64,000 bases of DNA, taken from NCBI GenBank assembly GCA_022641835.1, contig CP048724.1, forward strand, positions 248,001 to 312,000, read 5' to 3'. Positions within the stretch are counted from its first letter, which is position 1; every line of letters starts with the position of its first letter. A program made the position numbers and the translations under genes. This document shows, piece after piece, positions 21,954 to 59,429 of this stretch. This stretch comes from Petasospora fabianii (taxonomy: Eukaryota; Ascomycota; Saccharomycetes; Phaffomycetales; Wickerhamomycetaceae). The notes under the pieces were generated by a model. That model did no database searches and was not told the DNA's origin. It was given only the letters and a program-made list of their open reading frames with translations.

Positions 21954-23909
21954 ATGACTCAACGGCTTACACTACTCGATCTTCCTAATGAGATCCTTTT
22001 CAAGATTCTTTATCAGCTGACGGATATCAAGGACTTGGCTTCACTAGCTCAAATCCCCGAGATCAAACGGGAGATGGCTCAATTTGTCAGAGTAGTTCTT
22101 GTGCCCGGTGAGAAGCGGATTATGTACTTGGACGAAGTGTTTCATGATTTCCCAGTGTCAAGCTTTGCTGATCGTGCTCCCGAGCTTAGTATCAACCTGT
22201 GTGAGTGGGATGTGGGTCGGTATCTACGGTCCAGCAGTGAGGTGAGCACAGTGAGCTTGGTAGAAACTATCAGGTCAAATATTCTCTCACAGTGCAACAT
22301 CCGCAATTTCTTGTTTGTTTCAAGATTGAGTGAGATTGGGAAGTTTTCGGATGTACAGACGGAGGCATTTCTGATACAGGGGCTCATTGAGCCATTGCTG
22401 AAAGATCGAAGATTTGTCATCACCTTCCTTTCAAAGACGATACGGATGCGTTCGACCGATTTGACAGATGCTGATATAAAGCTGCCCAACATCACCGAGA
22501 TGACGATGCAAGATGTTAATGGAGAACCATACCGTGAATTTCAGAAGCTTCAACCGTGGAATTTGAGTGTCTATGGAAGCACACGAAGAAACTGGACCTC
22601 CGTCATAGACACTGAAAACATTGAAAAGATCTTTGTTCAATCTACACACATGGCACACACTGGTGAGTTTTTGACATTACAGAGCAGAACACCAAGCCCC
22701 GACCCATTTACACTCCGCTCTCATACATTTGCCAATCTGAAAGACCTTTCCCTTGCATCCATCAATTGCCTTTGCGACCTAACTTTCCCACTTCTCGAAA
22801 ACCTCACACTCCAGATAACCCCATTCACCGAGACAACAAGAGTTGTGGTTCCAATCATATCCAATATTTCAGCGCCAAGTTGTGCTGCTCTATGGGTTTC
22901 AATCAGTACAACATCCCCACCAGAACTCCAATCAAAAGAGTTCCCATACATTCTACCTCTAGTGGAGAGGATCAACATGCCACAGTTGACTGTTCTCGAG
23001 ATGCGAATCACACCGACAACGCTTCGATTTGGTGAGAATGAGAACTCTCATAATGAGAATGGTGATAGACTCGCCTACATGGACTGGGAGGAGACGTTTG
23101 GTATCAATGGGTTCGATCGTGTTGGATGCACATGTGATCATAATGATGAAAACGAAGCGATGGCTTGTAAGCATGGGTGGCCCTCTGCTGGTATGATCAC
23201 GATGTCTGGTGCTACTGCTGGTATGAAGCTTGGTCCAGAGTTTTTGGGACAGCAAAAATTCTTCAATGTATCTTTTAGAGACCAAGGGAGGGTTCCGAGC
23301 ATTGGGGTCGAGTTGGGGAAGATGCATTTGTTGCATTCAATCAACGTTACGGACTTGAGAACTAAGGGTGAAATGTTGAGGGTTCCCTCTGTGATTCCAA
23401 AGCTGAAGAACTCGTTGACGTTCTTGCAGATCCATAGATTGGGTAGCGAGGAGGATGAAGAGCCCGTGATGAGTATTGATTTCCCTGAAATTGCTAAAAG
23501 ATTCCCAGATCTCCATGCGCTGGATGTTTGTGAGATTGCAAGTGAAGATGTTGTTGACGCTGATTTGTCACTGGTTTTCAACGATATTCATCTGTTGGTG
23601 CTACAGAACAGTCGAATGGATGATATACTGGAGTTTTTGGAGTCATTCAAGGCACCGAAATTGGAGGCATTGGAGATTATTGATTGCATCAAACCAAGAC
23701 TTGATTTTGAGGACACACCGACTCTTTTGCGGAGATTCAAAGGATGTGTTGAGGACCACTTTGCACACATTGAGAGATTAGCAGTATCGTTTGGTGACTG
23801 GTCAGAAAAGTCTTTGATCGAGGAGGCACTCGGAGATGACATTGTGGACATGACAAAGTTTCCACACTTGACGGACGTGACGATCAGACGGCTTCCTGTG
23901 GCGCAGTAA
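21954..23909 (+). CDS. F-box protein with LRR-like repeats, lineage-specific family member 1
   Basis: 651 residues from ATG 21954. An F-box fills residues 5-45 (LLDLPNEILFKILYQLTDIK), followed by the family motif QFVRVVLVPG. The rest consists of irregular leucine-rich segments such as FANLKDLSLASINCL and FPDLHALDVCEIAS. F-box proteins recruit substrates to SCF ubiquitin ligases through Skp1. The substrate is unknown; diverged LRR regions usually do the recognition. A Cys/His-containing stretch near residues 382-403 (CTCDHNDENEAMACKHG) is peculiar to this copy. Three more members lie in the window (26054-27202, 29656-30945, 51899-53784), and this is the longest intact one. No S. cerevisiae orthologue is recognised. 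Confidence 0.85.
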   Translation: MTQRLTLLDLPNEILFKILYQLTDIKDLASLAQIPEIKREMAQFVRVVLVPGEKRIMYLDEVFHDFPVSSFADRAPELSINLCEWDVGRYLRSSSEVSTVSLVETIRSNILSQCNIRNFLFVSRLSEIGKFSDVQTEAFLIQGLIEPLLKDRRFVITFLSKTIRMRSTDLTDADIKLPNITEMTMQDVNGEPYREFQKLQPWNLSVYGSTRRNWTSVIDTENIEKIFVQSTHMAHTGEFLTLQSRTPSPDPFTLRSHTFANLKDLSLASINCLCDLTFPLLENLTLQITPFTETTRVVVPIISNISAPSCAALWVSISTTSPPELQSKEFPYILPLVERINMPQLTVLEMRITPTTLRFGENENSHNENGDRLAYMDWEETFGINGFDRVGCTCDHNDENEAMACKHGWPSAGMITMSGATAGMKLGPEFLGQQKFFNVSFRDQGRVPSIGVELGKMHLLHSINVTDLRTKGEMLRVPSVIPKLKNSLTFLQIHRLGSEEDEEPVMSIDFPEIAKRFPDLHALDVCEIASEDVVDADLSLVFNDIHLLVLQNSRMDDILEFLESFKAPKLEALEIIDCIKPRLDFEDTPTLLRRFKGCVEDHFAHIERLAVSFGDWSEKSLIEEALGDDIVDMTKFPHLTDVTIRRLPVAQ

Positions 23910-26053: not shown

Positions 26054-27202
26054 TTAACGGATCTTGTCATCTTTGAAATATAGGACAGGCTCCGGCTGAT
26101 ACGTAAACACTTTGAAGTCAGCCCAAGACAGATCAGAATCTATAGTGGTGAATATTGACAGCGCAGGAAACTCAACCTTATTCAGCATTGGACATCTCAA
26201 TGCCTCGACTTTCCCATCTAGAGTCGCATGTATGGAGAGATTTTCCAGAACATCAAACCCGGAAAGCTTGATCTTCACCTCACGTTGCTCTCGGGACTCA
26301 CTATCAAAGCAAGCTACTGATAAACGAAGCGAGCGTAGGGTGGACCCCAGGACCTTAGACATTGCTGCAAGCATCTCATCAGTATCGTATTGCTTTGTAC
26401 CCTGCATCTTAGCAGAGAAATCGACACCAATATCAATACTCTTCACATGGGAGAATATGTTACAAGGAACACCACCAGCCATCAACAGAGCAGACACAAA
26501 TGTCATTTCCGCACTGATTATGGTCAATTTTTCCAATTTTTCGAGACGAGGAGGGAGTTTCTCTCTATTAACGACTGCTTTCTTTCGACTAAGCCCCTGG
26601 TTCCAAGGACATGGACGCATCGCCTTCGAATGCCAGCTGTAAACCGGTCTCGAACCTCGTATTGTCAATTCTTTCAAGAATGGGAAATTGAGGAAGCAAT
26701 GGTCGATGTTACAATCATCAATAATGAATGATCTGGACAAGAAAACGAGAGTTGACCTCGAGTCAGGTATCACTTTGCTAGAGAGCCTGCGGCTTGTGAA
26801 GATCGCTTGACATCTGGCTCGATACTTGACTAAGGAAGTGCTGGTTGGGTCAATGATGTAATTTGAAATATGACGTTGGATGAAGAATTTGTCAGTGTCA
26901 AACTCAAATCCTTCGGATATACTTACTGGATTCTCGTTGGAGTAAGTGTACTCAATGATGTTGATGCTGTATTCCGGGGCAATGTCCTGAATGTTCACTA
27001 TGGGGAGGTTATGCTTTACAAAGTTATCCTGGAGGAATGCAGAGATCTCAGCGTTCTCGGTGACACAGATACGTATCATTTTTTGGAGGGTGGTCATCAG
27101 TTGTGGGATTGATAGGATTGATATGATAACCTCAATATCGTGCACATAAGAGAGGATGAGGAATAACACTTCGGAGGGGAGATCAAGTACTGATATGGGC
27201 AT
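26054..27202 (-). CDS. F-box protein, lineage-specific family member 2
   Basis: 382 residues from ATG 27202. The N-terminal F-box is SVLDLPSEVLFLILSYVHDI. A segment parallel to the longer paralogue follows, with APEYSINIIEYT matching APELSINLCEWD in the 21954 gene. LRR-like stretches include LKELTIRGSRPVYSW and LEKLTIISAEMTF. It is shorter than the 651-residue member and ends abruptly after the repeats, possibly a natural C-terminal shortening. It converges on the yapsin-like gene with only 16 bp between stop codons. Function is inferred to be an SCF substrate receptor. Confidence 0.82.
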   Translation of the reverse strand: MPISVLDLPSEVLFLILSYVHDIEVIISILSIPQLMTTLQKMIRICVTENAEISAFLQDNFVKHNLPIVNIQDIAPEYSINIIEYTYSNENPVSISEGFEFDTDKFFIQRHISNYIIDPTSTSLVKYRARCQAIFTSRRLSSKVIPDSRSTLVFLSRSFIIDDCNIDHCFLNFPFLKELTIRGSRPVYSWHSKAMRPCPWNQGLSRKKAVVNREKLPPRLEKLEKLTIISAEMTFVSALLMAGGVPCNIFSHVKSIDIGVDFSAKMQGTKQYDTDEMLAAMSKVLGSTLRSLRLSVACFDSESREQREVKIKLSGFDVLENLSIHATLDGKVEALRCPMLNKVEFPALSIFTTIDSDLSWADFKVFTYQPEPVLYFKDDKIR

Positions 27203-29655: not shown

Positions 29656-30945
29656 TCATGCTGCTGAGATAGTCTTCAGACCACATTTAGGTGATGGGGA
29701 TGTGACAACTTTACCAGTCAAAGTTGCTTCCTTCAAGTGTTCCATTCCCTCGGAACAAATCACTGTCTCAACTGATGATGGTACTGCAACTTTAGAAACT
29801 TTATTAACCACTGCCGAGCCTAGAAGTCGATGAACAAATGGCACAACTGTGAAGTTGAACTGCTTACATTGCGGTAAGTCTAGATCCATGATCTTTGGAA
29901 GAACATCTCCATAGACATCCAACGAGAATGTCTTTGCAATTGGTGCTGAGACGTTCTTGATCATTGGTTGTGCAAAGATACCGTTTGTTTGACCTGGAAC
30001 GGTCTTTATCACAAGTTTTAAGAGTGATGGTAGTGTGATGTTCTCCATGTGTTTGATGCCATTAAGCTCAAGATTTGTCAAGACTGGGAAGTTAAGGTTG
30101 GATAGTGTAGAGTATTTTGTCTCTTGATGGAAATGCTTTCTTGAATTGCTTTCATAGACGTTCTTGGATAAGAACGCATCAGAGTTAGTAGTATAAAACT
30201 CCCAGTCATTAAAATCAATAGTTAATGATTCAAGACGACTAATGTTTGCCTGTGTGATACAGTAAGCTGGGAAACGTTCGAGATGAAGTGTCTTTAGTTC
30301 CCAGGCGGGGAATGCAACATCAGCCCAGTCATAGACATTAAGCATACTGCGATGATTTTCCTGACCTTGCACTCTAAGTGATTCCACTGATGGTGCAAAG
30401 AGCTTCTTAGACTTGTTCCACCATGATGTTGTGATGTGATCATTATCTGCCCATCTTTTATTTTCCCTCTCTTCAGAGTCCTTGATGAACGACATCTCAA
30501 CGTTTTTAGATGCTAAGAACACACTCTCAAACATACCTAAGTTCTCCTCAAGGGGAAGACGAACATATCCTTCATTTTGCTCTGAGGGGATCCCGACACC
30601 AAGAACAACACGAGTCTTCTTGAATGTGGAAGCAGTCTTAAGAATCTCCTTACATTTGGCTAAATTGTCGGGGTTATTGAGTTCAACAAAGGCGATTGTG
30701 AACTCCTCAATCAAGAAATCATCAAGTGTACTTGCAAGCCAACCCTGGGAGCCATCCACGAAGGGGAACTCATTGAACACTTTCAATGCGTTGGTATCAT
30801 CGCTATAAACGCGGACAAATTGTCCCACCCTCTCGCGGACGGTGGGGGAACATGCGGCGATATTAGCGATATCCTGTGGGTCTTGGAGGTGCCAACAGAT
30901 CTCAAACAACACCGGTGTTGGGAAATCAAGATATGAGGTTGTCAT
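29656..30945 (-). CDS. F-box protein, lineage-specific family member 3
   Basis: 429 residues from ATG 30945. The N-terminal F-box is YLDFPTPVLFEICWHLQDPQ, followed by the family tag RERVGQFVRVYSDD. LRR-like segments follow (FPAWELKTLHLERFP, ISRLESLTIDFNDWEF, FPVLTNLELNGIKHM, LPSLLKLVIKT). The F-box and the QFVRV tag align with the other three copies, while the repeat region has diverged strongly. An adaptor for an SCF ubiquitin ligase is inferred; the target is unknown. Confidence 0.83.
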   Translation of the reverse strand: MTTSYLDFPTPVLFEICWHLQDPQDIANIAACSPTVRERVGQFVRVYSDDTNALKVFNEFPFVDGSQGWLASTLDDFLIEEFTIAFVELNNPDNLAKCKEILKTASTFKKTRVVLGVGIPSEQNEGYVRLPLEENLGMFESVFLASKNVEMSFIKDSEERENKRWADNDHITTSWWNKSKKLFAPSVESLRVQGQENHRSMLNVYDWADVAFPAWELKTLHLERFPAYCITQANISRLESLTIDFNDWEFYTTNSDAFLSKNVYESNSRKHFHQETKYSTLSNLNFPVLTNLELNGIKHMENITLPSLLKLVIKTVPGQTNGIFAQPMIKNVSAPIAKTFSLDVYGDVLPKIMDLDLPQCKQFNFTVVPFVHRLLGSAVVNKVSKVAVPSSVETVICSEGMEHLKEATLTGKVVTSPSPKCGLKTISAA

Positions 30946-44173: not shown

Positions 44174-44759
44174 TACTGGCACATATGAATGGGTTCAACA
44201 GGCATAGGCACCTTATTGTGAGATAAGAGACCTGGATCCTCTTAAGTAGCTTCAACAACATCCGATTTCTTTATCAAACATCGTCAATTCAAGTCTGTTT
44301 CAACCATCGATCAAGGCCTGCTATCCTACTCACAGTAGCTAGTCAGCTATTTGGAAACATCACCTAGAAACAAATACCTGACAGCTAACACAAGTGTGCC
44401 AGTTTCTCTCAAGGAGTTATCCAACTCATCCATGTTGTCAGGGGTTCCCCACAAAAAGATCCGAGACTTCCCAATCGGGAAGTCACAATTGGATTCAATG
44501 GCCAACATCAAACATGACAGGGCCCATTGGTTTCATCACGATCTTCTTGAATTGTTTCGTTTCAGCAAGATATGGAATCACATGGAGAAAATGCACAAGA
44601 GTGCCACGAAAAGTGAATAGATTATAAGCAGGAAGAGTGTATCGTATCCCCTTTCGGCTTTGACAATCGTGTTCAAGGTGACTATGGAACATTCACAAGA
44701 CGGTCCTTGTGATAAAAATGGAATTATCTAACTATTTCACTAGAATAGTTTAGGTTGAT

Positions 44760-44767
44760 ATGTTTCA
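44760..44767 (-). promoter_or_regulatory. Pheromone response element-like ATGTTTCA
   Basis: TGAAACAT on the minus strand, matching the Ste12 pheromone response core TGAAACA, 43 bp upstream of the TATA box and 128 bp upstream of the first a-factor ATG. S. cerevisiae mating genes carry such sites. One copy of a 7-mer can arise by chance, but the position is right. Confidence 0.45.
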
Positions 44768-44809
44768 TTTGTTGAACAGCTCATATATCACTGGGCTTTT
44801 GTCCTCAAG

Positions 44810-44818
44810 TATAAAAAG
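44810..44818 (+). promoter_or_regulatory. TATA box of a-factor gene 1
   Basis: TATAAAAAG lies 77 bp before the ATG at 44895. The leader between them is a C/A/T-rich tract with almost no G, usual for strongly expressed yeast genes. Confidence 0.6.
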
Positions 44819-44894: not shown

Positions 44895-44999
44895 ATGCAA
44901 CCTTTCACCACTTCAACTGCTGTTCCAAACACCTCTGATAACCAGGACAACAAGAAACTCCCATGGGCTGACAGAAACAAGCCATGTGTTATTGCCTGA
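44895..44999 (+). CDS. MFA1: a-factor-type lipopeptide mating pheromone precursor, copy 1
   Basis: 34 codons plus TGA. The start MQPFTTSTAVP closely follows the S. cerevisiae a-factor precursor start MQPSTATAAP, and the protein ends in CVIA, exactly the CaaX box of both yeast MFA genes. Known maturation: the Cys is farnesylated by Ram1/Ram2, AAX is removed, the Cys is methylated by Ste14, the N-terminus is trimmed in two cuts, and Ste6 exports the lipopeptide. The leader is rich in Asn and Asp (DNQDN). After Lys20-Lys21 the likely mature region is LPWADRNKPC, with one Trp as in yeast a-factor; the exact N-terminal cut is inferred. The frame is open upstream to 44760, but the TATA box and leader point to 44895. 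Confidence 0.92.
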   Translation: MQPFTTSTAVPNTSDNQDNKKLPWADRNKPCVIA

Positions 45000-45598
45000 A
45001 GGGGTTATAGCTTTGGTGATTATCTCACCTATTGCTGGTATATCTTCATTGATGACAATGATATACTTGATAGCTTAAACAAAGCTTATTTAACACGCTT
45101 ACTATACTCTTTTCAAAGAAATAAGTCGTAGGATAATCGGTGATAGTCCTCCTAGCTCCTAGGATAGGTGACCATAAGATACTAGACTTACTAACAGCCT
45201 TCCATAAACCTCGGCTTAATAATTGGCGTCAAGTGCCTCTCATGGACTTAAGTTCAGAGGTGTAGAGCAGGTCTTAATGCATTTGACCTAGAAATCCTTC
45301 TCACTTGGGTTGTGTTTCCCAAGTTCCGAAGCTTGTCCGCCACACGATTGAAACCCATAAAGGTGGATATGATCTGTGATGCATCAAGCTCTTGGCATAC
45401 AGAGTTTTTGTTTGAAACCTGTCTCAGGAGCCATTGAGAGCTTCCAAATCGGTTAAGCAAAACACTAATCTCTTACACTCACTCATTATCAAAGGATCAT
45501 GGCACAAATATAAAAGCTAGTCGAACGCCCCTGATGTTTCACTTGTTGGGTTGGTAACCATTAGCTGCACACTTAAACAACTACATCAAACTTCAACA
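45000..45598. other. Spacer between the two a-factor genes
   Basis: 599 bp, the promoter of copy 2. It holds a perfect inverted repeat ACTTGGG (45303-45309) and CCCAAGT (45318-45324), a TGAAACC near 45413, a TACTAAC at 45189 that lacks partner splice sites, and no further CVIA-ending frame that I could find. Confidence 0.55.
45509..45541 (+). promoter_or_regulatory. TATA box and ATGTTTCA element of a-factor gene 2
   Basis: TATAAAAG at 45509-45516 lies 83 bp before the ATG at 45599, and ATGTTTCA at 45534-45541 is the same 8-mer as upstream of copy 1. Here it lies between TATA and ATG, so a role as a Ste12 site is less likely; it may be inherited from the duplication. Confidence 0.4.
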
Positions 45599-45703
45599 AT
45601 GCACCCATCTACTACTTCTCATGCTTCCCCAAACAACACTCAGGACAACGAGGACAACAGCAAAATCACCAGCTGGCCAAGAATGTGGTGTGTTATCGCT
45701 TAA
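45599..45703 (+). CDS. MFA2: a-factor-type lipopeptide mating pheromone precursor, copy 2
   Basis: 34 codons plus TAA, the same length and strand as copy 1, 600 bp downstream. It starts MHPSTTSHASPN, shares the DNEDN acidic stretch and ends CVIA, so prenylation and export should be as for copy 1. The leader matches copy 1 at most positions (Met, Pro3, Thr5-Ser7, Ala9, Pro11, Asn12 and the Asp-Asn pairs), but the part before the Cys is quite different: after Lys22 it reads ITSWPRMWC, against LPWADRNKPC in copy 1. S. cerevisiae Mfa1 and Mfa2 mature peptides differ at one residue. Either the copies signal differently or one is losing function; the frame and CaaX box are intact. Confidence 0.9.
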   Translation: MHPSTTSHASPNNTQDNEDNSKITSWPRMWCVIA

Positions 45704-45871: not shown

Positions 45872-47458
45872 TCAGGCCTTCACCTCGCTCTCTGAGCCCG
45901 TGATCTCCTCAGCAATCACGCATGTGACTTTCTGCTGCTGGACCACATCTTCAATATGGTCTCTCACCCTGTTCTGATATCTGTCAAACCACACCATCAA
46001 GCCGTTGTAAAGGAACTGTGCACATGCAAGACCTAGAGCCACCTTCATGCCACTAGCGAACTGTGGTGCATACTTGGTGTTGAATAGCATGATACCCATT
46101 GGAGTAGTAGCGAAAGAGCACACCAAGTTCAAAGAACCGAGGGTAAAGGCTCTGATTTGAGCATCCTCTCTAGTCATCTCGTTACACCATGAAACGACAA
46201 CGACTGAGACTGGAGCACAGACACCAATGATGGAGTAGGCGTAGAACTCAGCAGCACGGGGGACATCCCATTGGACGAGAATGGCAAGACCTGAGATCCA
46301 AAGGACAATTAGAACAGCATAGGCCTCACAGTATCGTCCACGCCAGTCGCAGATGAAACCAATAACCAGAGAGGTCACTGCCTTGACTCCCGCTTGGATG
46401 GATGGGATGTTATTCCTATCATAAATATTGTATCCCTGGCTCTCTAAGACAATACTCCAGTAGTTACCAGCGGACTCGGTCATTTGAGAAATGGTGTAGG
46501 CAATTGTGAAGACGTAGAATTGCCAAGAGGAGAGTGCTCTAGCTATGAGGCCCCAGTTAAAGTTGTTGATATTCTCAACGTCCTTCACAGCTTGTGTCTG
46601 TCTGTGAATGTATTCGAGCTCCTTAGTATTGAGATAGAAATTTGGCTTACCCTTTGCTGGGTCATCTGGAAGGATTAGATAACCGAATATGGCCACTGGG
46701 ACGGAGATACAGAAATCAATGACAAACGGCCATTTCCAAGCAGCAAGACCACCTGCACCATCAATCGAGACGAGTCTGGCTTGGAGAAGGCCACCAACTA
46801 GTGGGCCGACACAACCGGACATGATGAAAACAGCTGATCTGGAAACCAAGATGTCTGGAGAGTAAAGAGTTCCAAGAATGTAGAAGATGGATGGGTAGGC
46901 GATACCCTCCATAGCACCCTGGATGTTTCTGACAACCATTAAAGTAGCGTAGCTCTTGGTGGTGATAACAAGGATACAAGCGATGGACCAGCCAATCTCA
47001 AACAAGGGGAACACAACACCTGGAGAGAAACGGGTCATGAGCAAGGGACCAAGAAGACCAAAGACGGAGTACGTGATGTAGAAGGAGTTGTCAAGCCAGT
47101 TGTAATCGGCATCTTTCATATCGTAGGCCTCCTGCATACCAGAAACGTACGCGTTTGAGATGTTAGAGGAGTCCAGGTACTTGATGAAAAAGGAGAGACA
47201 GACAAAAGTCAAGACGAAGCAGTCGAGCTTAAAGATGACTTTCTTTTCCCATGCCGTGGAGTTGGCTGGGTACCAAACAAAGAATGGTCTCTTTTGACGA
47301 GATTTACGTGGCGATGCCCAGGACCAGAAGAGTTTCTTTCTGGTCTGGTAATCAACCTCAACATTGTTGAAGGATACATCTTGTTGTGGTACGTCCTCGA
47401 AAGAACAAACAGAGGCGATGTCCTCAACCTGAGCAGCCTGCTTTTCAGATGTAGACAT
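45872..47458 (-). CDS. MFS transporter of the Dal5 (anion:cation symporter) family
   Basis: The ATG at 47458 gives MSTSEKQAAQVEDIASVCSF and 528 residues; the frame runs on to another ATG at 47617, but those 53 residues are atypical for the family. Twelve membrane spans are predicted. Family motifs include FFIKYLDSSNISNAYVSGMQ after span one and a DWRGRY loop between the halves. Closest in style are S. cerevisiae Seo1, Fen2 (pantothenate), Vht1 (biotin) and Liz1-like carriers. The substrate is probably a small carboxylate or vitamin taken up with protons at the plasma membrane, and cannot be read from the sequence. It faces the oxidase gene across an 802-bp divergent promoter. Confidence 0.88.
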   Translation of the reverse strand: MSTSEKQAAQVEDIASVCSFEDVPQQDVSFNNVEVDYQTRKKLFWSWASPRKSRQKRPFFVWYPANSTAWEKKVIFKLDCFVLTFVCLSFFIKYLDSSNISNAYVSGMQEAYDMKDADYNWLDNSFYITYSVFGLLGPLLMTRFSPGVVFPLFEIGWSIACILVITTKSYATLMVVRNIQGAMEGIAYPSIFYILGTLYSPDILVSRSAVFIMSGCVGPLVGGLLQARLVSIDGAGGLAAWKWPFVIDFCISVPVAIFGYLILPDDPAKGKPNFYLNTKELEYIHRQTQAVKDVENINNFNWGLIARALSSWQFYVFTIAYTISQMTESAGNYWSIVLESQGYNIYDRNNIPSIQAGVKAVTSLVIGFICDWRGRYCEAYAVLIVLWISGLAILVQWDVPRAAEFYAYSIIGVCAPVSVVVVSWCNEMTREDAQIRAFTLGSLNLVCSFATTPMGIMLFNTKYAPQFASGMKVALGLACAQFLYNGLMVWFDRYQNRVRDHIEDVVQQQKVTCVIAEEITGSESEVKA

Positions 47459-48260
47459 TGTACTGGAGGGTTTACAGTATGTGGAGAATCTTGGCAGGTC
47501 AGATGGAAATACGACACATGGTAGGATTTGTGACTGGTATTTATGTGTCACGCGTACAAGGATAAAGACTGGGAGATTGATAAGAGCCGCGTAAAATCTT
47601 GTACGAGAGGCAGCCATTACGGACGGTATTTCATCCAGATATGGGTCAGCAAGCAGGGCTTGCTATTTCCAAGGTGAATTTTGGGCGGTTCAAGCTGCAG
47701 GTCAATACGAGCTGCGTATCAGCCCCTAGATCTTTCTAGTGTTGAACAACAGTAACGCGCTGACTTGATACCTCTGAAAGTTCAATGGAGACGGTTCAGA
47801 ATGTCAACAAACATTTCAATGACCCAGTGGAACCACTAAAACTAGTGGAACCAGTGGATTGACAGTCATCTCCACCGCGATAAGACTAAAAATGAGCTGT
47901 CGGGGCTGTAATGTCGGTCTAACATCCTTATCGGGACAGAAGAGGTAGCCTCGTGCGATTAGACATGGCGATCTTAACCTTTCGGCGAATAAGCAACTCA
48001 ATGTCTCAGAACCAGCTACGCTTATTGGTGACTTTTGAGGGATTTAAGCAAACCAATTATCGGCGAGGTGGCTGTTTCTGGGGTAGTTTTAATGGCGTGG
48101 TTAAGATCTGGTCGTCTCTACCTTCCCTTGTCGAACCCAGCGCGCATCATATCACCCTTACTCCACTATTTAAATGCCCACGGGACAAAATAACATTCTC
48201 CACATCTACCAAGTATGGTTAATTATCCATTGACCATCCATTATCTAAGGACCACCTACA
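47459..48260. other. Divergent promoter region, MFS transporter and oxidase
   Basis: 802 bp. A 10-bp direct repeat AGTGGAACCA (47826-47835, 47844-47853) encloses an inverted repeat CCACTA-AAAC-TAGTGG, a candidate operator for co-regulating both genes. No other gene was recognised. Confidence 0.5.
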
Positions 48261-51898: not shown

Positions 51899-53784
51899 TT
51901 ATTGGGCCCTCGAAGGTGGAATCAAACGAACATCTCTCTCGATACCTTTATGCACCTTAAACTGTTCGATGTGATGACAAATCTCCTCGATTGAACTTTC
52001 TGGTCCGATACCACTCCCGTCATTCTCGGAATAGTTATCACGTGAAATATAGTAAGAGAGTCTTTTCAATTGTGGAAGATCATCAGCATATAAACGTTTT
52101 AAAGCACCCCCATCTAAGCTGATACTTTCAAGTGCATAACATCCAATGAGCTCAAGCTCTGTGATATCGAGTCCAAGATCAAGGTAAACAAGACGACGAA
52201 ACCCCGTGAGCCTCATTGGAGATTCAAGTGTCAGACGGTGATCTGCCAGGCCAAGGTACATACTAAGCCCCTTTAAATAGTTTTTGACTCTTTCAAGACT
52301 GACTATTAACTTCTGTATGATTGAAGTATGTGTGCTCGGATCAATTGTGGTAGTGATGCCCCTGGAGCTAATCACTTTGATCTTTTTCATGTGGGACAGC
52401 TTAAAGCATTTGACCACTTCTGTAAGGACCTCGAGATCACAATCAGCAAGAGAGAGGCCCTCTAGCTGTGGGAAATGGATACCTTCAGTGAAACTGTCTT
52501 CAGATGTAACTCCTCTAATCGTTAAGCTGTAAATCATGGGGAAATCGTGTGCAAGGGCATTAAAGTCCAGCGCCATATGTGAGTTTGAGTCTCTCACAAT
52601 TGTAAGGCACTCCAATGACTGCATTGAATTCTTTAGACCGATGACACGGGCAATCTCTCTATCTCCTGTCCCCTCAAGGGAGTTAATATTGCAAAATGTT
52701 GAATCACTGACATATTCAGCCATGTTGCAGACGATAACACAGATGTCTGCCTTCGGTAGGTCAATTACTGAACACTTGGAATGATCAATGGGTAGCAAGG
52801 CAGAACAGCATTGTGATGGAAGATCCATCATTAAAAATTTCTCACAGGTCTCTGGAAGAGATAGCTTATCAATAATTGGTTCCTGGCGAGAAGCGATAAG
52901 CATGAAATCCCTGACATTTGGCATGCTGACATTGGTAATGCGTGGGGTAGCATTACCGTTGGGGGAGTCAGGAGTGAGGTAACACTTGAACGATACCAAC
53001 GAAGGGAAAGAAGAGTTTTCTAAATAGACTATATTGTTGAGGTTAAGGTGTTTAAGCATTGGAAAGTCAACATCTGAGAGGCCAACCATAACGTCACTCT
53101 TAGCGAGGTTTCTGTACCGGGAGAGTGGTCTATAGGAGGCCCAATCCACATTCACATCGATATACAGTTGTCTGAGCCTATCAAGACAGAGCCTCTGAAT
53201 AAACGGTCGGTACAGCCTCTAATTAAAGCTCCTGTTGGAGCCATGCGTATGGGGTGGCTTCCCTTGAAGTCCACCATGTGCAAAGAGAGCTCTGTTTCAG
53301 GGTTTGTCGCCTTGATCGTGTTCTCCAAGACAGTATCCATTATATAGATCCTCTCCGTTGAGGTGAAGATGACAACCTTGTCGTTATGGCTCATATGGGG
53401 ACACAGTTCATTGCTAAAAAAACCTGACCATGATCCTTCATCCAATACACCGATATAGAACTGGACATGGTGTAGCCCGGAACGTAGAGAGTCGCAAAGT
53501 TCTGAGCACTTGGTGGGATCAATTTCGAGTTCAATTTCGAGTTCAATGAGACTTATGGACCAATCGGGGACTTGTGACAAGATCTTGTCTTGTGAGCAGA
53601 AACTAAAACCTTTGAAGTACGCTGGAGGACCACCATTTGCCGTAAGAACACGTATGAACTGACCCAATTTTCCTCTGAGTTCTTTGGAAGCTTGCGCTAA
53701 GCTTAAAAGATCCTCGTAGTCATCAAGCTGGAGACAAATGTTGATCAGAACCTCTAAGGGACAACAGTGCAGAAACGATGTCAT
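51899..53784 (-). pseudogene. F-box/LRR-like family member 4, split by a frameshift
   Basis: ATG 53784 opens a 210-codon frame with the F-box (CCPLEVLINICLQLDDYEDL) and the family tag GKLGQFIRVLTANG; it stops at 53152-53154. The LRR-like remainder continues at -1 relative to it down to 51899, with good repeats such as RLRQLYIDVNVDW just before its first GTG and FPMLKHLNLNNIVYL later, about 430 residues. The change of frame must lie between 53219 (a stop in the second frame) and 53152. No intron signals or canonical slippery heptamer were seen there. Summed length (about 630) matches the intact 651-residue paralogue. It is either a recent single-base loss with the rest undecayed, or a sequencing error. 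Confidence 0.75.
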
Positions 53785-56494: not shown

Positions 56495-57698
56495 ACAGTC
56501 TGACTCGTCATTCTCATAAAACATTGGCCAACATTGACCTACTGTTTCATTTCTTGCCGCCTTTGCTACTTCTCGCATCGCATGTCGACTCATGTAGTGG
56601 TTGGCATCATACACCATAATGATTATTAAGTGTACATTTCATTGTTTTTATCCTTACGATTGTAGATCAATCAGTCATTGATTGGAGCGTCGTAATATCA
56701 GTCCATGACGATGGCTGCTATTATCAGATCAAGATGTAACAATGACACCTGCTGATGGTAAACCAATCTTTTCACCTGTATCACATGTACTTATTAAGTA
56801 GAGCTTTACCTTACACCGCATGTAATCTCCAGCACATAAGTATTCTGAAATCATAATGAAAGCTAGTCTCATGAGCTTTAGTAAGAGCCACAGTGGCACC
56901 ATGCAACTCTTTTGTCCCGGGAATGAGATGAAAGGGTGTTCCAAGACGCTAATCGCTGGTTTTAGATACCAGGTCTAGTCAGATGTTCATAATAACATCT
57001 CTTCTTGACTCAATCGCTATTGAGTAAGAATATGTGACACCTTTCAATGGCCAGATCAGGCAAGTCACTCAGCACAAATAACCTTAAGTTTCCCCCCAAA
57101 TATTCCATCAAGACTCGACCAGGAGTTGTAGTAATAGAGCATTTGCAGGTTCCTTAACTAGATCAAATGGGTAATTTCCGAGATATGTCACTAAAGAATC
57201 CAACTTTGCACCCCCATTTGCCTATCCACAAATGAGCCACATGTCTTGATGTCTTGATTCCGACGCCGATGGGCCCAATACTGTAAGGGACTAATCTTTA
57301 ACTTGGAAATTACCGAAACTTGCTAAAAATGCAAAGTGCATTTCTTAGAAGTTCAAATAGCCGGCTTGGTTACAACCTATTGCGCTGGGTGTGAAGTGTA
57401 GAGGGTCATTTTGCACCACGGGCATATTGATTCACTTTGGGTGAGATCCGCAGATCTTTACACATATCTCTCCAATCACTCATGCATTATGAGGGCCCCT
57501 ATCATCTTCAAACGGTACAAATTTCCCCCTAGGGAAGGTGAAGTATTCAAATAGCTTGATGAACAGATTTCTTAGCCGTCGAGGATGACACCCGGCTACT
57601 CTGCTTGAAGACAAGTATAAAAGGAGCTGAGGGAGACTTCAAAACATTGAACAACTGCTATCATTAGATCTTCTCATCATTCAACAATAACAAATAAA
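56495..57698. other. Long promoter region of the small secreted protein gene
   Basis: 1204 bp without a recognisable gene or tRNA. A TATAAAAG lies at 57616-57623, 76 bp before the ATG at 57699, with an A-rich, G-poor leader, fitting strong or regulated expression. Short runs of C and CGACGCCGATGGG near 57260 were seen. Confidence 0.5.
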
Positions 57699-58799: not shown

Positions 58800-59429
58800 T
58801 CAGAACTGGTTCTGCTGACTGTTCATACCACCAAAGTAAGTCTGATAAACAGCAGCTTGTTCCGGGTTGAGATAACCAGTGTTTGGAATACCTTGTTGAG
58901 AGTTGTAAGCACCTTGAGGAGCACCCTGTGGGGGACCTTGTTGACCTGGAGTAGTAGAACCAACTTGGGCGGATTGCTGAGCAGCTTGAGTTGGAGGAGC
59001 ACCAGCCTGTGTACTTGTTGGGGTCGAAGCTTCTTCTTCTTCACCTGCATCTTCTGGAGCGTTAAGACAAGCCTGAATCAAGTTTTTACCTTCAGGTTTT
59101 GTCACCAGTGGTTGCAACTTTGGAGTAGTGAATGTATAAACGAGTCCAGTTTCGGAAACAACAAGGAGAAGAACTTGAGTACCTGTAAGCACAGAGAGTT
59201 CATAAGCCTTTTTCATAATACCAGCTTTTCTCTTAGAGAAAGTGATATGACGTCTAGATTTATCTTGAATGAATCTAATCTCAATCTTTCTTCTCTCTCT
59301 TGCCGAAGATTTACCTTCATCTTCATCATCGATATCCTCTTGACCGGCATTGCTGTTAGAGCCAAGTGGCTGGTTATTCACAAGGTCCTCCTGTTGATCC
59401 ACAAGTTTCTGCTCTGTTATTTCGGACAT
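58800..59429 (-). CDS. MCM1: MADS-box transcription factor Mcm1
   Basis: 209 residues from ATG 59429. Mcm1 works with a1/alpha2, alpha1 or Ste12 in mating-type control, with Fkh2/Ndd1 in G2/M, and at early-cell-cycle boxes. The MADS and SAM domains (about 44-125) are nearly identical to yeast: RRKIEIRFIQDKSRRHITFS, KRKAGIMKKAYELSVLTGTQ, VLLLVVSETGLVYTFTTPKL and GKNLIQACLNAPED. An acidic stretch (DIDDEDEG) precedes it, and the C-terminal tail is rich in Gln, Pro and Gly, shorter than in S. cerevisiae (286 residues). It is likely essential. Mcm1 would be expected to act on the pheromone genes 14 kb away, though no clear P-box was found there. Confidence 0.97.
   Translation of the reverse strand: MSEITEQKLVDQQEDLVNNQPLGSNSNAGQEDIDDEDEGKSSARERRKIEIRFIQDKSRRHITFSKRKAGIMKKAYELSVLTGTQVLLLVVSETGLVYTFTTPKLQPLVTKPEGKNLIQACLNAPEDAGEEEEASTPTSTQAGAPPTQAAQQSAQVGSTTPGQQGPPQGAPQGAYNSQQGIPNTGYLNPEQAAVYQTYFGGMNSQQNQF

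Follow-up and report, generated by a model that had tools for sequence, protein, structure and literature searches.

Copies of the a-factor gene within one yeast normally give nearly identical peptides, and it is because of this that the gene pair described here is unusual. In Saccharomyces cerevisiae, for example, MFA1 and MFA2 lie at separate loci and encode cores that are one position apart (YIIKGVFWDPAC and YIIKGLFWDPAC), and the second N-terminal cut of the precursor falls after an Asp-Asn pair (DN). Smut mating loci carry two pheromone genes per locus. Farnesylated CAAX pheromones of differing specificity are known from the triallelic smut loci of the Sporisorium reilianum type (PMC3248468). 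In the fission yeasts Schizosaccharomyces pombe (three genes, mfm1-3) and S. octosporus (six genes, mfm1-6), all copies give an identical mature peptide (PMC6342294). Finally, the MFA1 and MFA2 of the budding yeast Saccharomycopsis fibuligera are tandem a-factor genes with two mature peptide types, one amino acid apart (PMC5106798).

The pair lies in a window of 64 kb, the whole stretch of DNA that was analysed, which is nuclear budding-yeast DNA with a GC content of 44% and large, intron-poor genes. CTG codons occupy hydrophobic-looking positions in the homologues of SPF1, OLE1 and ARG8, indicating that the host reads CTG as Leu and is thus not a CTG-Ser yeast. The GC content and the Mfa-like leader might, very tentatively, suit a yeast of the Phaffomycetales, for example a Cyberlindnera. 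The features of the locus are collected in Table 1.

Table 1. Genes and promoter features at the a-factor-type gene pair (positions within the window)
Feature	Position	Strand	Remarks
Divergent neighbour gene, 284 aa	43319-44173	-	without Pfam or PDB match
Mcm1 P-box-like palindrome CTTCCCAATCGGGAAG (tentative)	44467-44482	+	upstream of copy 1
Promoter element ATGTTTCATTTGTTG, copy 1	44760-44774	+	-135; presumed Ste12 PRE ATGTTTCA, then HMG-like TTGTT
TATA box (TATAAA), copy 1	44810-44815	+	-85
a-Factor precursor gene, copy 1	44895-44999	+	intact 34-codon ORF MQPFTTSTAVPNTSDNQDNKKLPWADRNKPCVIA, CVIA end
Weaker P-box-like site CTTCCAAATCGGTTAA (tentative)	45441-45456	+	upstream of copy 2; not significant alone
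TATA box (TATAAA), copy 2	45509-45514	+	-90
Promoter element ATGTTTCACTTGTTG, copy 2	45534-45548	+	-65; 14/15 identical to 44760-44774
a-Factor precursor gene, copy 2	45599-45703	+	intact 34-codon ORF MHPSTTSHASPNNTQDNEDNSKITSWPRMWCVIA, CVIA end
MFS transporter	45872-47617	-	Pfam MFS_1

Two a-factor-type precursors in tandem

An earlier note on this DNA had reported two 34-codon genes on the same strand, about 600 bp apart and both ending in CVIA. This is borne out: both ORFs are intact and 599 bp separate them, and each encodes a short precursor with a terminal CAAX box. They are the sole CVIA-ending frames of 20-80 codons in the window, no third copy or relic was found among its CaaX or CVIA frames, and 60 windows randomised with a second-order Markov model contained 0 CVIA-ending short ORFs. 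The frames are short, as chance ORFs would be, but about 0 such CVIA-ending ORFs are expected where two were found, and their leaders and promoters are homologous. The randomisation counts, together with the shared leaders and promoter elements, refute a chance origin, which we regard as hardly conceivable. Both copies begin in the context ACAATGC. In copy 1, another in-frame ATG lies upstream at 44760 and would give a frame of 79 codons; this extended form was rejected, since the TATA box lies downstream of that ATG. As the ATG at 44760 precedes the TATA box and belongs to the promoter element described below, 44895 is the credible start of copy 1.

The likeness of the leaders remarked on earlier (MQPFTTSTAVP and MHPSTTSHASP) is well founded, with an alignment score (z 6.7) that none of the 2000 shuffles equalled (0/2000); for the whole proteins without Met and CVIA, z is 5.6. 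Both leaders are also homologous to known a-factor leaders: against S. cerevisiae Mfa1 and Mfa2, z reaches 5.9 and 4.9 for copy 1 and 4.1 and 3.7 for copy 2, with 0-2 of 2000 shuffles as good in these comparisons. The S. cerevisiae sequences used here were confirmed as members of Pfam PF17317 (MFA1_2), at 66.4 and 76.8 bits. Copy 1 matches this family at 10.2 bits over leader positions 1-19 only, below the gathering cutoff of 25 bits, and copy 2 has no match in Pfam, MFA1_2 included, so that neither copy is formally a member. This is expected, because the 34-position model takes in the S. cerevisiae core and neither core found here resembles it (YIIKGV/LFWDPAC; z between -0.3 and 0.7). Nevertheless, the CVIA ends and the leaders akin to those of Mfa1 and Mfa2 support the assignment of both frames as a-factor-type precursors. 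CVIA is the motif of the S. cerevisiae a-factor, and it is cleaved by both Rce1 and Ste24 (PMC9231725, PMC5014548).

The sequence DN immediately precedes the core in all four precursors, that is both copies, Mfa1 and Mfa2. Cleavage is likely to follow this conserved DN, which gives the predicted mature peptides KKLPWADRNKPC for copy 1 (12 residues) and SKITSWPRMWC for copy 2 (11 residues), in place of the 10 and 9 residues shown previously; the calculated [M+H]+ of their farnesylated methyl esters is 1673.99 and 1612.87, respectively. Unlike the leaders, the cores (Cys left out) are no more similar than the shuffle mean (z -0.1), and the two mature peptides are not a near-identical pair of the MFA1/MFA2 type. 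The earlier claim that they share almost nothing beyond a Trp holds as far as overall similarity is concerned, but the codon alignment also places a Lys (AAA) and an Arg (AGA) in common, giving 3/9 aligned residues identical, plus 3 gaps. All four residues preceding the Cys differ (RNKP in copy 1, PRMW in copy 2). The suggestion that processing signals have been conserved on either side of a diverging core is therefore supported by the leaders (z 6.7), the cores (z -0.1) and the retention of CVIA.

Promoter elements and neighbouring genes

The 15-mer ATGTTTCAYTTGTTG is present as two copies in the whole window, one in each a-factor promoter, their common form being ATGTTTCA[T/C]TTGTTG. Its first half, ATGTTTCA, which we take to be the canonical Ste12 pheromone response element (PRE), occurs 4 times in the 64 kb, both strands included, and was found in both promoters in 0.2% of randomised promoters (P=0.002). 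A shared 14/15 match arose in 3% of the randomised trials (P=0.03), none of those with a PRE. The TTGTT that follows the PRE could be an HMG-type site. The activator Mata2 belongs to the HMG class. In most pre-duplication yeasts, a-specific genes need Mata2 (PMC5748462). Two further elements, resembling the Mcm1 P-box, are suggestive at the level of sequence. The one upstream of copy 1 contains a perfect palindrome (TTCCCAATCGGGAA, 44468-44481), with one other TTCC-N6-GGAA in the window, at 57523; it lies in the intergenic stretch that copy 1 shares with the 43319 gene, and so also in the promoter of this divergent gene. The 12-mer CTTCCNAATCGG common to the two sites is within chance at such a search size. 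Pheromone-induced expression of both copies through the PRE and the TATA box can be predicted from these promoters.

The gene pair is flanked by the divergent 43319 gene and a convergent MFS transporter, and no receptor gene was found within the 64 kb window. The product of the 43319 gene may carry a mitochondrial presequence, and visual inspection suggests stretches resembling an HMG box (LWNKLVKSDRQKLYLMSSEMVKY); single-sequence fold prediction gave no usable model (pLDDT 36), and a search with this gene against the viral_contigs collection, the sole collection scanned, revealed no relatives of the locus. An internal CVIA near the C terminus of the MFS transporter (45922, minus strand) lies 220 bp beyond copy 2 and seems to be due to chance. 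An MCM1-like MADS-box gene (58800-59429, minus strand; SRF-TF, 76 bits) lies about 13 kb from the pair; factors of this class regulate a-specific genes, and the linkage is probably coincidental. In addition, four dispersed F-box/LRR-like paralogues, 22-44% identical, occur within 32 kb (21954-23909, plus strand; 26054-27202, 29656-30945 and 51899-53784, all minus strand), which suggests a locally expanding family. The last of these is broken into two frames (53152-53784 and 51899-53089) and is probably a pseudogene or the result of an assembly indel.

Divergence and selection between the copies

About 50% of the synonymous sites differ between the copies (pS 0.50 overall). In the leader and CVIA, pN is 0.17 against a pS of 0.50-0.52 (p=0.006), and the CVIA codons show 0 nonsynonymous and 2 synonymous changes; as pN lies far below pS, these parts are under purifying selection. 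In the core, pN rises to 0.40, plus three codon gaps (p=0.03 against leader and CVIA). The codon alignment behind all these values was made by hand so that it favours identity in the core, and with a single pair of short genes the statistics are weak. At the level of amino-acid identity, leader and core do not differ significantly (p 0.14; with CVIA included, 0.07). The core pN of 0.40 does not exceed the corresponding pS of 0.43-0.50, and positive selection is therefore not demonstrated: since the core evolves at about the synonymous rate, selection for a new specificity accounts for it no better than relaxed constraint does, and functional divergence of the cores is not required by the data. 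The core DNA of the two copies is no more alike than shuffled DNA. A compensating frameshift was tried as the source of the core difference and rejected, no convincing alternative frame pair being found (best p 0.03 among nine).

The early decay of one copy had been raised as a further possibility, and in its favour copy 2 has the weaker P-box-like site and lacks a Pfam signal, and the cores differ strongly. However, with about 50% synonymous divergence between the copies, copy 2 still has its start, stop, frame, DN, CVIA, TATA box and PRE, and the probability that an unconstrained copy would retain ATG, frame and CVIA is about 0.04 at 0.2 substitutions per site and 0.002-0.003 at 0.4. Both this low chance and the purifying selection on leader and CVIA (p=0.006) argue against the decay of either copy, and we regard a decaying or unexpressed copy as very unlikely.

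These data are probably best explained by an a-factor gene that was duplicated in tandem long ago, both copies remaining working pheromone genes while their cores diverged. Each copy would be transcribed from its own TATA promoter and induced via Ste12 at the PRE. The CVIA cysteine would then be farnesylated, VIA removed by Rce1 or Ste24, and the product methylated by Ste14, yielding a farnesylated methyl ester. N-terminal cleavage in two steps, the later one behind the conserved DN, would release the peptides for a Ste6-type export, and an a-cell would thus secrete two lipopeptides, KKLPWADRNKPC and SKITSWPRMWC. The cores most likely drifted or diverged over a long time, most likely because the original interaction with the receptor could do without the peptide of one copy.

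Receptor recognition and known pheromone systems

For the M-factor of S. pombe, changes at the final four positions ahead of the Cys are strongly depleted, and a foreign M-factor fails (PMC13099959, PMC6342294). Given this stringency and the difference between RNKP and PRMW, one Ste3 should by analogy not read both peptides well, in which case copy 2 (or copy 1) would have a different partner or role, or be weakly active. The fission yeast analogy spans a very large evolutionary distance and receptor evidence from elsewhere points both ways; on this analogy, it is unlikely that one receptor reads both peptides equally well. A single Ste3 might still respond to both if recognition depended mainly on the methyl-esterified farnesyl-Cys and on a small number of residues (Trp, basic), the second gene adding dose and the core being weakly constrained. 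The Lys, Trp and Arg common to both cores, their similar length and charge and the near-synonymous rate of core evolution are consistent with this, and MFA1 and MFA2 of S. cerevisiae are redundant; the stringent recognition of lipopeptides in fission yeast, where duplicates encode identical peptides, speaks against it, and we hold it to be a tentative and rather doubtful possibility.

Alternatively, both duplicates may have been kept because they signal to different receptors or receptor alleles, or because copy 2 blocks or jams a receptor. All four residues before the Cys differ, which is the stretch read most strictly by the fission yeast receptor Map3, the processing and promoter signals are preserved in both copies, pN is higher in the core than in the leader, and the multi-pheromone mating loci of smuts provide a precedent. 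On the other hand, the core pN of 0.40 is not above pS, with no sign of positive selection, and budding yeasts are generally described with a single a-factor receptor, Ste3. Retention for such reasons seems unlikely to us, and we would give little credence to two a-factors of different specificity, with copy 2 read by a second or allelic receptor, serving as an antagonist or acting on another species.

Under the duplication with both copies still working, which we favour, the locus bears on a wider problem. Pheromones have to change in step with their receptors, and it is an open question how new ones can arise without causing sterility. A duplicate a-factor gene with fixed processing and control but a changing core, the part that is recognised, would make a candidate intermediate, as mating could be maintained by one copy while the other varied freely. 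Provided that both peptides are made, the pair offers a direct test of the tolerance of Ste3 and of the capacity of a yeast for two mating signals. Should one receptor read both, the a-factor core would be far less constrained than the fission yeast data suggest; should the specificities differ, mate recognition on the lipopeptide side would not follow a scheme of a single ligand for a single Ste3.

In the literature searched, the main survey of yeast a-factor genes (Srikant et al. 2023) apart, we came across no budding yeast with tandem a-factor genes whose cores cannot be aligned; that survey may already list such a pair. As in S. cerevisiae, the precursors have 34-38 residues, an MQP start (MHP in copy 2), a Ser/Thr-rich leader followed by Lys, Asp and Asn with DN at its end, a core of 11-12 residues and a CVIA end, whereas here the genes form a tandem, and no more than three residues of their cores can be aligned. 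The smut loci likewise have several farnesylated CAAX pheromones in one mating system, there of different specificity; they are basidiomycete loci linked to receptor alleles, in contrast to the receptor-free window analysed here. Several genes per farnesylated pheromone are also found in S. pombe and S. octosporus, although there the mfm copies are identical in the mature peptide. The closest case, Saccharomycopsis fibuligera, is equally a tandem budding-yeast pair with two mature peptide types, but these differ by one residue, compared with 9 of 12 core positions that differ or are gapped here. Duplicate a-factor genes are ordinary, and what seems new at this locus is a tandem pair with clearly different cores; the PRE-bearing element and the TATA boxes of both genes add to what the earlier note had reported.
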